DNA of 64,000 nucleotides from Spirirestis rafaelensis WJT71-NPBG6 (GTDB lineage: Bacteria > Cyanobacteriota > Cyanobacteriia > Cyanobacteriales > Nostocaceae). The stretch lies in assembly GCA_019359015.1 (NCBI GenBank), contig JAHHID010000023.1:1-64000 (forward strand). The letters are read 5' to 3'. The translations under genes and the position numbers were made by a program. The notes beneath the pieces are model-generated. The model ran no database searches and was not told where the DNA came from. It saw only the letters and a program-made list of their open reading frames with translations. This document shows positions 32,157-62,091 of this stretch, piece by piece (the first letter of the stretch is position 1; each line of letters opens with the position of its first letter).

Positions 32157-32690
32157 TAATACCAATTTAATATAAAGCTGCATAGAATAGAGCTTCCAAG
32201 ATAAAGTTATAAGAAGAGACAGACATTACTTGCTCAAATGTAAGTTGGTTGAATATTTCTTGGATGCGATGCCTACGGCGGGCTACGCCTACGCTTAAAG
32301 CTTGTAAAGAAGAAAACAGTTCATTTTTAAGTGGTTTTTTGAGGAGCTGCCAAAGCCTCTCGATAGGGTTGAGTTCGGGAGAATGGGGTGGTTGAAGCAG
32401 AGGAATAATATTCTCCGGCCAACGAATTGCTCCCACTGGTATGAGCGCTCGCTTGGTCAATCTGTAAAATGGCATAATGCGAGCCTAATTGTTGAGATAG
32501 CCAGTCCAAAAACTGTTGAAAATACTCGTCGTTGAGTTTGGGGTATTCGTGCTGGAAATGCTTTCCTGTCAAGGGTTCAATTGCATCATAAATCCAAAAA
32601 TTTTCCCGTTGCCATTTTACCTCAACAGTGGGTTTGACTCCGGAAGTTGTAATCACTTTTCCTGTGAGAGTTTTTAGCTGAAACAGCAAT
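32157..32690 (-). mobile_element. IS630-family element, right copy, frameshifted and interrupted
   Basis: The leftward transposase reads (from 32690) LLFQLKTLTGKVITTSGVKP, WQRENFWIYDAIEPLTG, then the catalytic ILQIDQASAHTS. A frameshift near 32445 switches to PVGAIRWPENIIPLLQ and PHSPELNPIERLWQ, which holds the last catalytic Glu. Then comes the tail shared with the left copy, stop at 32167. The terminal sequence starts TAATACCAATTT at 32157. The 5' third is replaced by an ISKra4-like insertion at 32691. Dead transposase. Confidence 0.8.
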
Positions 32691-36366: not shown

Positions 36367-37544
36367 TAAGTAAGTCGGCACGAAAAAACCAAACTATGTA
36401 AAGATAAATAAATACGGTTAATGTATCTACCGAGGTGACTAAGTATGGGCGCTCGTCTAAGGGTATTTCTAACCCATGAGCAAGATAAAACCCTGTTAAA
36501 CCTAAGAACTGCGGATGTACCACAGAAAGTTAAAGACCGAGCAGAGGTCATTAGACTAAACGCACATGGCTGGTACGTGGAAAAAATAGCTGCTCATTTC
36601 AATTGGACTCCTCAAACGGTAAGAGAAATCTTACATAAATGGCGAAAACTTGATTTAGAAGGGCTTTGGGATAACCCAGGTAGAGGAGGCAAAACCAAGT
36701 ATAGCGAAGAGGATATAGTATTTTTGGAGGAATGCCTCAAAGAAGAACCACGTACATATAACAGTCGTCAACTAGCCCAAAAATTAGAGAGTGATCGCTT
36801 TATTAAACTGAGTCCCGACAGATTAAGACGGGTACTCAAAAAAAGGGGGTTATTTGGAAACGAGCTTTGAATTTGCCACAAAGGGAAACAAGACCCGAAA
36901 GTCAAACAAATAAAGCGCTTCAGATCTAGATATGTTAGAACTATCTGCTGCTAGTGGAGAAATAGACTTGAAGTATTTGGATGAATCTTTCTTTTTGTGC
37001 ATGGAGTGAACCGGGTTACACCTATTACTTCCGAGGTGAGCAAAAACGACTAGAACAAAGTAAATGTCGTGGTCGTAGATTAAGCATTATTGGATTTCTT
37101 CAACCAATAATAAGCTTTGTTTACGGTTTGGTTATTGGTGGTGTTGACAGAAAATCTTATATCCACATGATGGAGCAAGAAGCGGCTGATGCCCAAAAGC
37201 TCGGCCGCATCAGAGTAATAGTGGAGGACAACGGGCCAATACATCGATGTCTTCAGGTGCAGCAGTTATGGTCAAAGTGGGAACAGATGGGTTTGTACAT
37301 CTTCTTTTTACCCAAATATTGCTCCGAAATGAATCCGATTGAATTGGAATGGCAACACCTTAAAAAGGATGAACTGGCAGGGAAAATGTTTGACGACGAG
37401 TTAGAGCTTGCCTATGCCGTAATTGATGGTGTTCAAGCCAGAGGGGAAAAAGGAAACTATAGTACACAACGTGTTAAATTTAACTCCAATCGCTCTGATT
37501 AACTTTTCGTTACATAGTTGTAAATTTCCCCGCCGACTTACTTA
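36367..37544 (+). mobile_element. IS630-family insertion sequence, frameshifted
   Basis: Terminal repeats TAAGTAAGTCGGC (36367-36379) and its complement (37532-37544), with ACTATGTAA further in at both ends. Total 1178 bp, right for IS630. The transposase reads in pieces: 36445-36870 (HTH region), a second frame to about 36920 (WKRALNLPQRE), a third around 36930-36995 (LDMLELSAASGEIDLKYLDES) and a fourth 36996-37502. Confidence 0.8.
36445..37502 (+). pseudogene. IS630 transposase, at least three frameshifts
   Basis: First part (141 codons, 36445-36870): winged helix-turn-helix with KVKDRAEVIRLNAHGW, AAHFNWTPQTVREILHKWR. Last part: WSEPGYTYYFRGEQ, then IVEDNGPIHRC (second catalytic Asp) and LPKYCSEMNPIELEWQ (Glu). 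The first frame change is at an A7G5 tract near 36838-36850, which on its own could be programmed, but two more breaks follow, so the gene is inactive. Confidence 0.8.
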
Positions 37545-38654: not shown

Positions 38655-39218
38655 TTATTTGACACCCAGCAATTCAACATCAAAAATTAATGTAGCGTTG
38701 GGAGGAATGACACCACCAGCACCTTGTGCGCCGTAACCCAATGATGATGGAATAATTAACCGACGACGACCACCTACTTTCATTGTGCTAATTCCTTCGT
38801 CCCAACCTTTAATCACTTGTCCAGTACCAAGTGGAAACTCAAATGGGACACCGCGAGCGCGCGAACTATCAAACTTGGTACCATTTTCTAAAGTACCTGT
38901 GTAGTGAACTGAGACGGTTTGACCTGTTTTTGGTGTTGCACCACTACCAAGTTTTAGTTCTGTATATTTTAATCCAGAGGAAGTGGTAACTACTTTATTT
39001 GCGCCAGTCGTAGTTTTTTTTGGAGTGGAACTAGGTGTGGAAGCAACGGTTACACTTGCTTCGGTTGCTGCTATGGATGGAGTACTCGTTGTTTGTCCTG
39101 CGTTGGAAGTTTGTTGAGTATCAAAGAGTTGCGTACAGGCTACCATCAAACAGCAAACACTCATCAATCCTGCACGCCATAATATCGCTTTCAACATCAG
39201 TTCCATGATTGGTTGCAT
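38655..39218 (-). CDS. FKBP-type peptidyl-prolyl isomerase lipoprotein
   Basis: A 187-aa exported PPIase. The N-terminus has a hydrophobic segment ending LMVAC (Cys about 28), a lipobox, followed by a Ser/Thr-rich linker (about 30-78). The FKBP domain (about 80-187) has [36 protein letters not shown] and [24 protein letters not shown], with active-site aromatic and Asp residues in place. It should assist folding of periplasmic or lumenal proteins. ATG at 39218, 39206 or 39197 are all possible starts; none has a good ribosome site. Confidence 0.88.
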
Positions 39219-40403
39219 ATAATAAGTAGATTTTACAAGTCGGAGAGTGTAAATGAGAATGCTTCAATTGCCCATTAAACCTAAAATCATAGTATAAAAG
39301 CTTCAATAGAGGCGATAGTACAAACCGAATGTCATTAATCTAGAGACGGATGGATGCGATCGTCTACAACGGGCGCTCCGCGCCATCGCACCTTTGCGTT
39401 GCATTTCTAAAACACGCACGGCGCAGCGATCGCAACCATAATTAAAAAATTGGAACCATAATAATGAACTGAAGTTGGGGAATCTTGCATCTGGGTATAA
39501 AATTGCTCATAAAGCTCTCAATCAGTTCAGTTTAGCTGTTTGGGGAATTCGCCAACAGTATCCGTATCCCGGCTCAAACTAGAGTACTAGCTGAAACCGC
39601 TACTTTTGTCTTCGATTTCATTCATTTTGTGGGGGAATTGACTTTTTTGGTTGATTACTTTGTCCTGGTGTCACATACTCGATTGCGAGATTGATAGTAT
39701 TTTATCAAGAAAGGCAGAGGGCAGAAGGCAGGAGGCAGAAGGAATACTGCCTTCTGCCATCAGTTGAGTGACCGTAGCGAACTTGGGTTTAAGACCCCGA
39801 CTGAACTCTTGTGAGCGTGGCTCCAAGTCAGGAGGAGTCTGAATCTCATCTATTGCCCAGCAAGGGTTTTAGGCGTTATGTGGCGGCAAACGTCAGCTTC
39901 GGTGATCTTACCCCTAAATAAGATTCGGTACTTTTTTCGTTACTTTGCACTTGGTGACAGCTTCCGTAACACTACCCCTTGTACGCTGTCTGCACATTCG
40001 TGGGGGGCTTGAATCAGGACATATGGAATGGGCGATCGCTGCTCTAATATCAAGTTGGGATAAACACTTATAATTAAGCTGCTCTGGTTTTTGACCACCA
40101 GTGGTAGCAAGTTAGACCAGAGATTAAATCATGTTGTTTCATCAGTTCTTGACAACGAAGCACTAACAAAGCTTCTAATTCATCTAAAGAAGTAGGGGAG
40201 CTATTGGCAACAATCTCGTTAGTGGGACTTAGGCAAAAAGCACCGATAAAATAGCCCCAAACCTATATTGCAAGAGGTTTTTACATTATTTTGCTTGGTT
40301 TGTTGGTATATCTAGGTTTCATGCCTTTTTGGGCATTTGGTGTATTCCCCTTACTCCACAAGGGTTTGACGCTTATTTCTTCGTCAAAAATGTTTAAGTT
40401 CCG
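39219..40403. other. Long gene-free stretch with transposase relics and repeats
   Basis: No intact gene. Recognisable pieces: a short open frame ending SLAVWGIRQQYPYPGSN (to about 39581); GGCAGAA-type heptamers with a hairpin (about 39715-39760); a leftward transposase-like tail (40074-40225); and an IS-end-like segment (about 40230-40300). Much of the region seems to be decayed mobile DNA. Confidence 0.5.
40074..40225 (-). pseudogene. Transposase C-terminal relic
   Basis: Leftward reading gives SSPTSLDELEALLVLRCQEL, MKQHDLISGLTCYHWW and a stop at 40074-40076. This resembles the end of a cyanobacterial IS transposase as I remember them, but the family is unclear. Nothing upstream remains. 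Confidence 0.4.
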
Positions 40404-41026
40404 CTACGTATTCATCAGCAAGTAGTGGGCAATAGTGGAAACATTAACATCACCACTGGGACGCTCAAATTGATTAATGGTAGTCAATTGCAGGCTAGTA
40501 CACGTCGGCGGAAATAAAGCTACCGTTCCAAATCAACCAAAAGCTTACATTATAAGCTTTTTGACTTTTGACTTTTGACTTCCGCGCAGCGGTACTAGTA
40601 CCTTTGGACAAGGTAACGCAGGCAATGTGAGTATCAATGCTAGCGATACTGTCTCGCTTGATAACACAGCTAGCAATGGCGATGCCAGTGCTATTGTGAG
40701 CATAGTACGACCGCAAAGCACAGGCGGAAATGGTGGAAACATCAGCATCAATACTAAAGCCCTTTCACTGACCAATGGCGGTAGAGTGGTTGCCCTCACG
40801 ATGGGACGGGGATCAACAGGGAGTGTAACGATCTTTGCCCGCGATTACGTCTCCTTGGATGGGAGGGGGTCAGATGGTGAAGGGAGTGGTGTATACAACC
40901 TCGTGAACCCAAATGGCATAGGAAACAGTGGAGGTATTCGCATTATCACCAGAACGCTCTCACTTACAAATAAAGCTCAGATCAATAGCAGTACCAGTGC
41001 AATGGGGGATGCAGGTGATGTGATAA
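40404..41026 (+). pseudogene. Filamentous haemagglutinin-like exoprotein fragment, interrupted
   Basis: A truncated beta-helical exoprotein. 40404-40501 reads VVGNSGNINITTGTLKLING...LQAST and resumes at 40602 as FGQGNAGNVSINASDTVSLD, GGNGGNISINTKALSLTNGG, NSGGIRIITRTLSLTNK, GDAGDVIIT. The GN(S/A)GN(I/V)xI repeats are typical of haemagglutinin/two-partner-secretion proteins. A 100-bp insertion (40502-40601) shifts the frame, and a MITE at 41022 removes the 3' end. The 5' end is lost as well. Confidence 0.8.
40502..40601 (+). mobile_element. 100-bp insertion with 7-bp direct repeats
   Basis: CTAGTAC occurs at 40495-40501 and again at 40595-40601. Removing exactly 100 bp rejoins the haemagglutinin frame (LQAST|FGQGN). 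The insert contains TTTTGAC heptamers and ends CCGCGCAGCGGTACTAGTAC; a related end follows TTTTGAA repeats at 61766-61818. Confidence 0.8.
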
Positions 41027-41275
41027 TAACCCAAGTTGCGGGTTATAAAATACAAATATACTATTTCAGGCGATCGCCTACTCCAAAGTAGTGGCTGCAC
41101 TGCGTGCAGCCACTACTTTGACTCAATCAAAAACGTAAGTATTGAATCAGACTATAGATAGCAATTGTTTTATTTAGCATCTTCCCCTCCGATTTTCATT
41201 CCTGGAGGGGATTTTATTCCTTAAACGGTGGCTTGCGATCGCCTAAATTTATAACTAGCAACTTGGGTTATTATC
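41022..41275. mobile_element. MITE with about 27-bp inverted ends
   Basis: Ends GATAATAACCCAAGTTGC at 41022 and the complement finishing at 41275, about 27 bp with two mismatches. The 254-bp interior is non-coding and includes two HIP1 sites and hairpins (for example CAAAGTAGTGGCTGCA...). A truncated copy is at 25573-25631. It destroys the 3' end of the haemagglutinin-like gene. Confidence 0.75.
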
Positions 41276-41296
41276 TGCTTTTCTTGACGTTTATAT

Positions 41297-41340
41297 AAGG
41301 ACGCGGTGAGGCGGATGATTTATCCGTGTACCGCGTCCTT
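41297..41340 (-). terminator. Hairpin terminator after outer-membrane protein gene
   Basis: AAGGACGCGGT (41297-41307) and ACCGCGTCCTT (41330-41340) form an 11-bp stem enclosing a second small stem CGGAT/ATCCG. It lies 54 bp past the leftward stop. Confidence 0.6.
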
Positions 41341-41394
41341 TAATAACTATTTCCCCTAAGTGAAATGACTGCATATTACTATCAGTCATAAAAA

Positions 41395-41925
41395 TTAGAA
41401 GCGGAAACCAACACCAGTTTGCAAGCTTAAAGCACCAGCATTGCTGTCTTTATAAGCATCAATACCCCATTTAGCATCACCATACAAAACGGTGTTTCTA
41501 GCAATTTCTGATTCAGCACCAAGGGTTACTACAGGTGTATTTTTGTTTCCCAATTGGGTAGCTTTACCTTCGTCGGTGACAAACGAGTAACCACCACCAA
41601 CGTAAACGTTAGTATTTTTTGCAATAGGTGCATCGTAAGTTACTAACGGCATAGCTGCGGTAGCATCACCACCAAACAAAACGGCACCGCGAACTGAAAC
41701 AGGTGCATTAGGAATTGCAGCGCGTCCTTGAATGTTTCCACCAAACAAAGCGGCATCATTTTGTCTTCCGCCATTGGTGACACCAGCAGATACACCAGCA
41801 CCGATGTAGCTACCCTTTAAACCAAGTGCTTCAGCGGTTTGAGGTGTTTGAGCGCTAGCAATTCCAGCACTAAAAATAACAGAAGCAACAGCAAGTGCAG
41901 AGGCTGCAAATTTTGCGAGTTTCAT
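41395..41925 (-). CDS. Small outer-membrane beta-barrel-like protein
   Basis: A 176-aa exported protein. Signal peptide MKLAKFAASALAVASVIFSAGIASA with cleavage about residue 25. The mature part alternates short beta-strands (GSYIGAGVSAGV, PVSVRGAVLFGG, NVYVGGGYSFV, TVLYGDAKWGI, LSLQTGVGFRF) and ends in Phe, as outer-membrane barrels recognised by BAM do. About eight strands would fit. AGGAAG 5 nt before ATG 41925 decides the start over the longer frame from 41955. Function unknown; structural or adhesive barrel most likely. Confidence 0.8.
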   Translation of the reverse strand: MKLAKFAASALAVASVIFSAGIASAQTPQTAEALGLKGSYIGAGVSAGVTNGGRQNDAALFGGNIQGRAAIPNAPVSVRGAVLFGGDATAAMPLVTYDAPIAKNTNVYVGGGYSFVTDEGKATQLGNKNTPVVTLGAESEIARNTVLYGDAKWGIDAYKDSNAGALSLQTGVGFRF

Positions 41926-42194
41926 AAGTTCTTCCTGACTAGAAATTAAGTTCAATCAATGTTCTCTAGTACTAGAATCTCTTTTTTTACGAAATGTAAC
42001 CTCGCACTTTTGGATAGCCTGAGAGGGTTAAAATTTTTCACCCGACTGGGTGAACACGCGGAGAAATTTCAAGTTCTTGGTGAACCACTGCGTCCCCTTT
42101 TCCCCCCTAGGAATAAATTTTTTCACCCATAAGTATGTTGATTATCCATACTTTTTCGCCTTTAAGAGAGATTGATGCGATCAGGGGATCATTT

Positions 42195-45429: not shown

Positions 45430-45566
45430 TCCAGAGTCAAAAGTCAAAAGTCAAAAGTCAACACTTGATAGTTCAGAGTCAAAAGTCAAAACTTAAGAGT
45501 CAAGATTCAATAGTAATTATCTAGACTGTTGACTAATGACCGTTGACTATTGACCAATGACCAATG
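45430..45566. repeat. AGTCAAA and ATGACCA heptamer repeats
   Basis: Four AGTCAAA units (about 45434-45461), further copies to 45510, and then TGACTAA/TGACCAA units to 45566. No gene. Confidence 0.65.
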
Positions 45567-61660: not shown

Positions 61661-62091
61661 TTTTACTTTCTCCTATCACATCACTTTGATAGATAGCTGT
61701 AACTATCTAGTACAACACGGCGTAAATAAACCACCCATTCTAAATCAATGAAACGCTTACGTTGTATTAATTTTGAATTTTGAATTTTGAATTTTGAATT
61801 CCGCCTTGCGGTACTAGTTATTCCACCGCAAGAAGCACTCATCAGATTTAATCAGAAAGTTTACCTTCCGTCACTTGATTGCCACAAACTGATAATTTAA
61901 TGCTACGGAAGTTTAATAAAGTGTCATTTTTCACTTCTCCTACTTTCCCACTTCCCTACTTCCCTCCCTTCATCTCGACAAAGACTTATCAAAAATATCT
62001 AAATTATGTCGAAAGTATAATTTATTCTCATCTTCTAAGCCGAGTATAATTGTGTTAATATATGTAAAACTAATACATTGAGCGCTAATCA
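61661..62091. repeat. Intergenic region with TTTTGAA array
   Basis: Five TTTTGAA heptamers (about 61769-61799) are followed by TTCCGCCTTGCGGTACTAGT, the same end as the 100-bp insert at 40502-40601. Also a CACTTCCC-type repeat near 61945-61970. No gene. Confidence 0.6.

Follow-up and report, generated by a model that had tools for sequence, protein, structure and literature searches.

Two short elements in the window (the whole 64,000-nucleotide stretch analysed), here called E1 and E2, are very probably copies of a non-autonomous MITE of the IS630/Tc1-mariner type, carried by heterocystous cyanobacteria and probably moved in trans by an IS630-family transposase. The family to which they belong is a real, well-defined IS630-type MITE. 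Comparison of the sequences establishes mobility in the recent past, duplication of a TA target, a preference for CTAG, and ends in common with an IS630-type element; from the match between MITE and IS ends, we infer cut-and-paste in trans, and which transposase acts.

Two insertions and an empty site

When 100 bp are removed from the haemagglutinin-like sequence (Table 1), ..KLINGSQLQ and STFGQGNAGNV.. (STFGQGNAGNVSINASDTVSLD..) fall in one frame, and a paralogue in the same genome runs on without an insert (..NGAQIIASTFGQGNAGN..; longer stretch ..SNGAQIIASTFGQGNAGNI..). The joined frame and the uninterrupted paralogue indicate that the insertion is real, as an earlier sequence-only reading had held. 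Several features listed in that reading were seen again: CTAGTAC at both borders (40495-40501 and 40595-40601), three TTTTGAC units between them, and a similar anatomy near 61769-61818, where the architecture of E1 recurs at 61707-61817. The CTAGTAC motif occurs nine times in the window versus a mean of 3.5 in shuffles, with nine reached in 0 of 100 shuffles.

That the insertion splits a haemagglutinin-like gene is correct in part. The reading frame does join across the insertion, but the similarity is limited to ~40431-41040, and the "gene" interrupted by E1 is already a remnant, one of a group with ~98 paralogous segments in the same genome. Pfam gave no match for the right part of the remnant; consequently, the name "haemagglutinin-like" rests on the similarity to this multi-copy repeat of the same genome and on the general character of cyanobacterial exoproteins. 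Rfam gave no match within 39000-42000. Just upstream of the remnant, at 40219-40406, lies a dispersed repeat of ~190 bp (71-85% conserved), which is present in many genomes of the family, often in several copies each, and is unrelated to the haemagglutinin-like sequence. Positions 41135-41278 have 74-91% matches in several relatives and are possibly a further dispersed repeat.

Table 1. Features of the two elements and of the sequence interrupted by E1 (positions in the window)
Feature	Position	Strand	Basis
E1: MITE copy, subfamily C, GTAC...GTAC, 98 bp, within haemagglutinin-like remnant	40498..40595	+	
E1: TA target-site duplication, left copy; target C-TA-G, C at 40495	40496..40497		homology with E2 empty site
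E1: TA target-site duplication, right copy; G of CTAG at 40598	40596..40597		homology with E2 empty site
E1: left terminal inverted repeat; 19/24 identical to IS at G000:C19	40498..40521	+	
E1: heptamer array, 3 x TTTTGAC	40559..40579	+	
E1: right terminal inverted repeat, with mini-palindrome CCGC-GCA-GCGG; 19/24 identical to IS right end	40572..40595	-	
Haemagglutinin-like remnant, left part, ..GNSGNINITTGTLKLINGSQLQ	40431..40494	+	
Haemagglutinin-like remnant, right part, STFGQGNAGNVSINASDTVSLD..	40595..41040	+	
E2: MITE copy, subfamily A, 105 bp, intergenic; empty in four congeners	61710..61814	+	
E2: left TA duplication	61708..61709		E2 empty site
E2: right TA duplication	61815..61816		E2 empty site
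E2: heptamer array, 4 x TTTTGAA	61771..61798	+	

The comparison with empty sites in relatives, which had been proposed as a check, succeeded for E2 but not for E1. A DNA search with the surroundings of E1 in 99 family genomes found no orthologous empty site, the matches being other dispersed repeats and MITE copies; the paralogous protein segments and the E2 locus were therefore used instead. The left flank of E2 has 91-93% identity in four congeners, and E2 is absent from all four. In the congener G002, the empty site reads GACTAT-C-TA-G-TTATTCCACC (stretch CTATCTAGTTATTC; ..CTAT-C-TA-G-TTATT..), and the corresponding site in the window reads AACTAT-C-TA-[GTACAACAC...GCGGTAC]-TA-G-TTATTCCACC (CTATCTA-[105 bp]-TAGTTATTC); the other three congeners have CTAC at the site. 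From the G002 site it follows that the duplication is TA and that the element is 105 bp. Applied to E1, this yields an element of 98 bp plus TA, which accounts for the 100 bp first noted, and the CTAGTAC "repeat" of E1 is made up of the duplicated TA, the GTAC terminus of the element, and a TAC that happened to follow in the target.

Copies, subfamilies, and spread

A genome-wide search for the end that follows the array, suggested by the sequence-only reading, revealed a family. The pattern used for both ends (CTAGTAC, then 75-105 bases, then GGTACTAG) was found at 18 places in the 7.07-Mb genome, compared with 0 for the reversed pattern used as a control, and 17 of the 18 belong to one family. 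A profile made from these 17 copies finds ~22 near-complete copies in this genome, in unrelated flanks. Profile matches occur in 14 of 20 genomes (own genome counted), including 11 of 11 relatives of the same family, and reach 126 in one genome, although the weak-scoring matches in such lists are often heptamer arrays alone. The copies in this genome form three subfamilies; five copies of one and four of another are identical although they stand at different, unrelated loci, which suggests that they spread recently. Measured elements are 84-131 bp long, and E1 (98 bp) and E2 (105 bp) are too small for a transposase gene. The family begins with GTAC-n5-GGCGKAAATAAA.. and ends with ..TTCCGCnnnGCGGTAC.

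Among the matches listed from 84,980 named genomes, the array plus the right-end motif is found in Nostoc, Calothrix, Anabaena, Dolichospermum, Tolypothrix, Brasilonema, and other Nostocales, and also in records named Oscillatoria, Xenococcus, Pleurocapsales, and Nodosilinea; among the listed matches of these last four, a script recognised the left end only in Oscillatoria sp. CS-180.

Whole copies are able to fold, and close to the right end there is a mini-palindrome, CCGCnnnGCGG. A conserved folded RNA as the selected unit was nevertheless rejected. When the DNA folds of four copies were compared with those of shuffles, two were clearly better (z -3.4 to -3.5), one was better by less (z -2.2), and a subfamily B copy was no better (z 0.3), so that the fold is no constant feature of the copies.

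Heptamer arrays inside and outside the element

In all subfamilies and genera examined, the array is found at the same position, with the body on one side of it and TTCCGC on the other, a little inward of the right end. It consists of 1-6 units, which may be TTTTGAA or TTTTGAC (TTTTGAM) or the octamers TGCGTGAM or TGAGTGAM. Arrays differ among copies that have identical bodies: in G010, eight copies that share a 48-nt body show four versions of the sequence from array to end, and subfamily B in this genome shows two versions among five copies whose bodies are identical.

Given this fixed place of the array, the ~22 copies in unrelated flanks, and the empty site of E2, the proposal that heptamer array and conserved end form one mobile unit is upheld. 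The broader suggestion, that the common cyanobacterial heptamers are in general parts of transposons, fails. When arrays are defined by at least three perfect TTTTGAM units, the MITE holds 16 of the 39 in this genome, 4 of the 7 in G001 (a congener), and 10 of the 61 in G007 (a relative with a complete genome), so that the arrays of the three genomes do not lie mostly within the element. A count by eye in this genome places 10 of 13 TTTTGAC-containing arrays inside the MITE and 6 of 26 pure TTTTGAA arrays. Those outside arrays that were looked at stand in unrelated contexts, in which the body or ends of the element were not found. Within the window, TTTTGAC arrays at 45435-45516 (- strand) lie outside the element in another context. 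After several outside arrays (L027, L030, L032, L135) comes another hairpin, TTCCCCGCAGGGG or TTCCCCGAAGGGG, possibly the mark of a second composite repeat family.

It could be argued from these observations that what moves or expands is the heptamer array, with the ends either carried along or belonging to a separate hairpin repeat that arrays join. Arrays do occur outside the element, some before other hairpins such as TTCCCCGCAGGGG, and TTTTGAM is switched with TGCGTGAM or TGAGTGAM in otherwise identical bodies. However, the boundaries of the insertions are at the GTAC ends and take in a unique body of ~60 bp, and the outside arrays examined have no fixed boundary or target duplication, making this explanation very unlikely.

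The array of the MITE presumably changes through slippage or when it recombines with arrays elsewhere. A more speculative idea, which we consider rather improbable, is that the right-hand array serves as a swap site, where heptamer or octamer units and small dispersed repeats would be exchanged with stand-alone arrays, and that the MITE thereby spreads and reseeds arrays in cyanobacterial genomes. It is prompted by identical bodies that differ in their units (TTTTGAA, TTTTGAC, TGCGTGAA, TGAGTGAC) and by foreign small palindromic repeats in the array or beside it. Repeats of this kind (GTTCGCGWAGCGTCTC..GAGAAGC and CCCTTCGACTGCGCTCAGGG) are found within the loop of the right end or among the heptamers (L022, L023, L059, L255; L091, L243). 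Because arrays differ among identical-bodied copies, insertion sites shared by strains might serve to date the turnover of arrays. Of the TTTTGAM arrays counted in the three genomes, 16-57% are carried by a defined transposon for which the ends and target have been mapped and an enzyme is probable; part of the old question of the cyanobacterial heptamers thus gains a concrete vehicle, and the remaining arrays need another explanation.

Target site and partner element

In 69 distinct copies from this genome and its relatives, C precedes the left TA in 66 and G follows the right TA in 67, and beyond these bases A and T are in turn overrepresented, giving ACTAGT; in this count, the TA pairs were imposed and the outer bases were free, 17 of the copies having first come from the CTAG pattern. 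In a further set of 59, the left-hand base is C in 56 and the right-hand base G in 59, the right-hand G being imposed by the search pattern. Two tandem copies in G004 (L040) have one CTAG in common, which would fit an element whose CTAG border can itself act as a target.

A 7-bp target duplication, CTAGTAC, had been read from E1, and E1 taken by itself does have this motif at both borders. Only CTAG or CTAGT is common to the borders of most other copies (CTAGT in E2), the empty site of E2 in G002 is a single CTAG with no TAC, and GTAC is the element's own inverted terminus, seen at either end of almost every copy aligned from this genome. The empty site refutes the longer duplication, and a transposon of this kind is now scarcely credible.

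The 2-bp duplication at CTAG agrees with what is described for IS630-family elements, which insert at TA and duplicate it (PMC2170065); a preference of IS630 for the TA in CTAG is given in the title of Tenzen and Ohtsubo 1991, as it stands in the reference list of that paper. A candidate partner is found in the same genome at G000:C19:15977-17547, a complete, full-size element of 1,565 bp with TA-flanked ends, GTACAGTTCGGCGGAAATAAAC and GTACCGCTTGGCGGAAATAAAC. At each end, 19 of 24 positions are identical in E1 and this element, and 18 of 24 in E2 and this element; the MITE and the IS630-type element thus have terminal inverted repeats in common. The frames of the larger element match the NF033545 IS630 transposase, every fragment scoring under the cut-off set for the whole protein, and PF13358 (DDE_3). 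Two points count against this pairing: the left and right ends agree with each other at only 14-15 of 24 positions in E1 and E2, versus 21 of 24 in the IS, and the transposase of the IS is disrupted, its ORFs being split. A longer repeat that begins with this left end is the point at which many contigs break off, and intact IS copies have presumably been lost in these assembly breaks.

An IS200/IS605-type element (REPIN-like), moved as a single strand by its transposase, with subterminal hairpins and no duplication, might account for the mini-palindrome near the right end and the ability of whole copies to fold, but is extremely improbable in view of the TA duplication at E2, ends that are inverted repeats, and a partner IS with an IS630-type DDE transposase.

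Taken together, the ends suggest that an IS630-type element like that at G000:C19 is likely to be the type of mobiliser. In such a model, full-length elements with the same ends (e.g., that at G000:C19) would supply the IS630-family transposase in trans; this would recognise the ends of the MITE and cut it out, the MITE would then enter a CTAG target at its TA, and the TA would be doubled during repair.

Fragments of IS630-family transposase are also present in the window (36538-37421, + strand; 32290-32686, - strand), and the ends of the present element were not found beside them. At two contig ends (G000:C105:21513-21559 and G000:C24:92-126), an IS630-type left end adjoins another haemagglutinin-like reading frame, which suggests that full-size IS copies have inserted in the haemagglutinin-like family.

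Comparison with known systems

Heptamer arrays of the same kind, with small palindromic repeats lodged in them, are known in Nostoc as STRR and have been described, like the small repeats, as dispersed repeats. Unlike STRR as described, a subset of the arrays here is an invariable component of a single transposon family. Nezha and other MITEs of heterocystous cyanobacteria are likewise said to be able to disrupt genes. The present family resembles Nezha and the Anabaena sp. 90 MITEs, compared by description only, in its heterocystous hosts and in gene disruption, and on this comparison it may already have been named. Cyanobacterial MITEs as such are already known (PMC3542288, PMC10969869); those of Anabaena sp. 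90 reportedly match no IS of that genome (PMC3542288), and Nezha is tied to ISNpu3-like elements (PMC3049150).

Duplication of a TA target is common to the present element and to ISY100 and IS630 of the Tc1-mariner group, with the CTAG preference reported for IS630 (PMC2170065), but those elements are autonomous and carry a transposase, whereas the present one does not.

The IS630-type MITE is a kind already known, with RUP and BrickBuilt as close precedents. RUP of Streptococcus pneumoniae (PMC3049150) is a MITE of ~107 bp with ends like those of IS630-Spn1. It is similar in size class, in lacking genes, in having IS630-type ends and a partner IS, in its many copies, and in gene interruption; it differs in host phylum and in sequence, and the passages on it mention no internal heptamer array. 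BrickBuilt of Porphyromonas gingivalis (PMC4596501) is a MITE with an internal minisatellite and is thus, like the present element, a bacterial MITE with an internal tandem-repeat array. However, its unit is 23 nt, compared with 7 or 8 nt here, leader and tail segments are described, and no IS630 link is given in the abstract; the repeat unit of the present MITE is also common outside the element.
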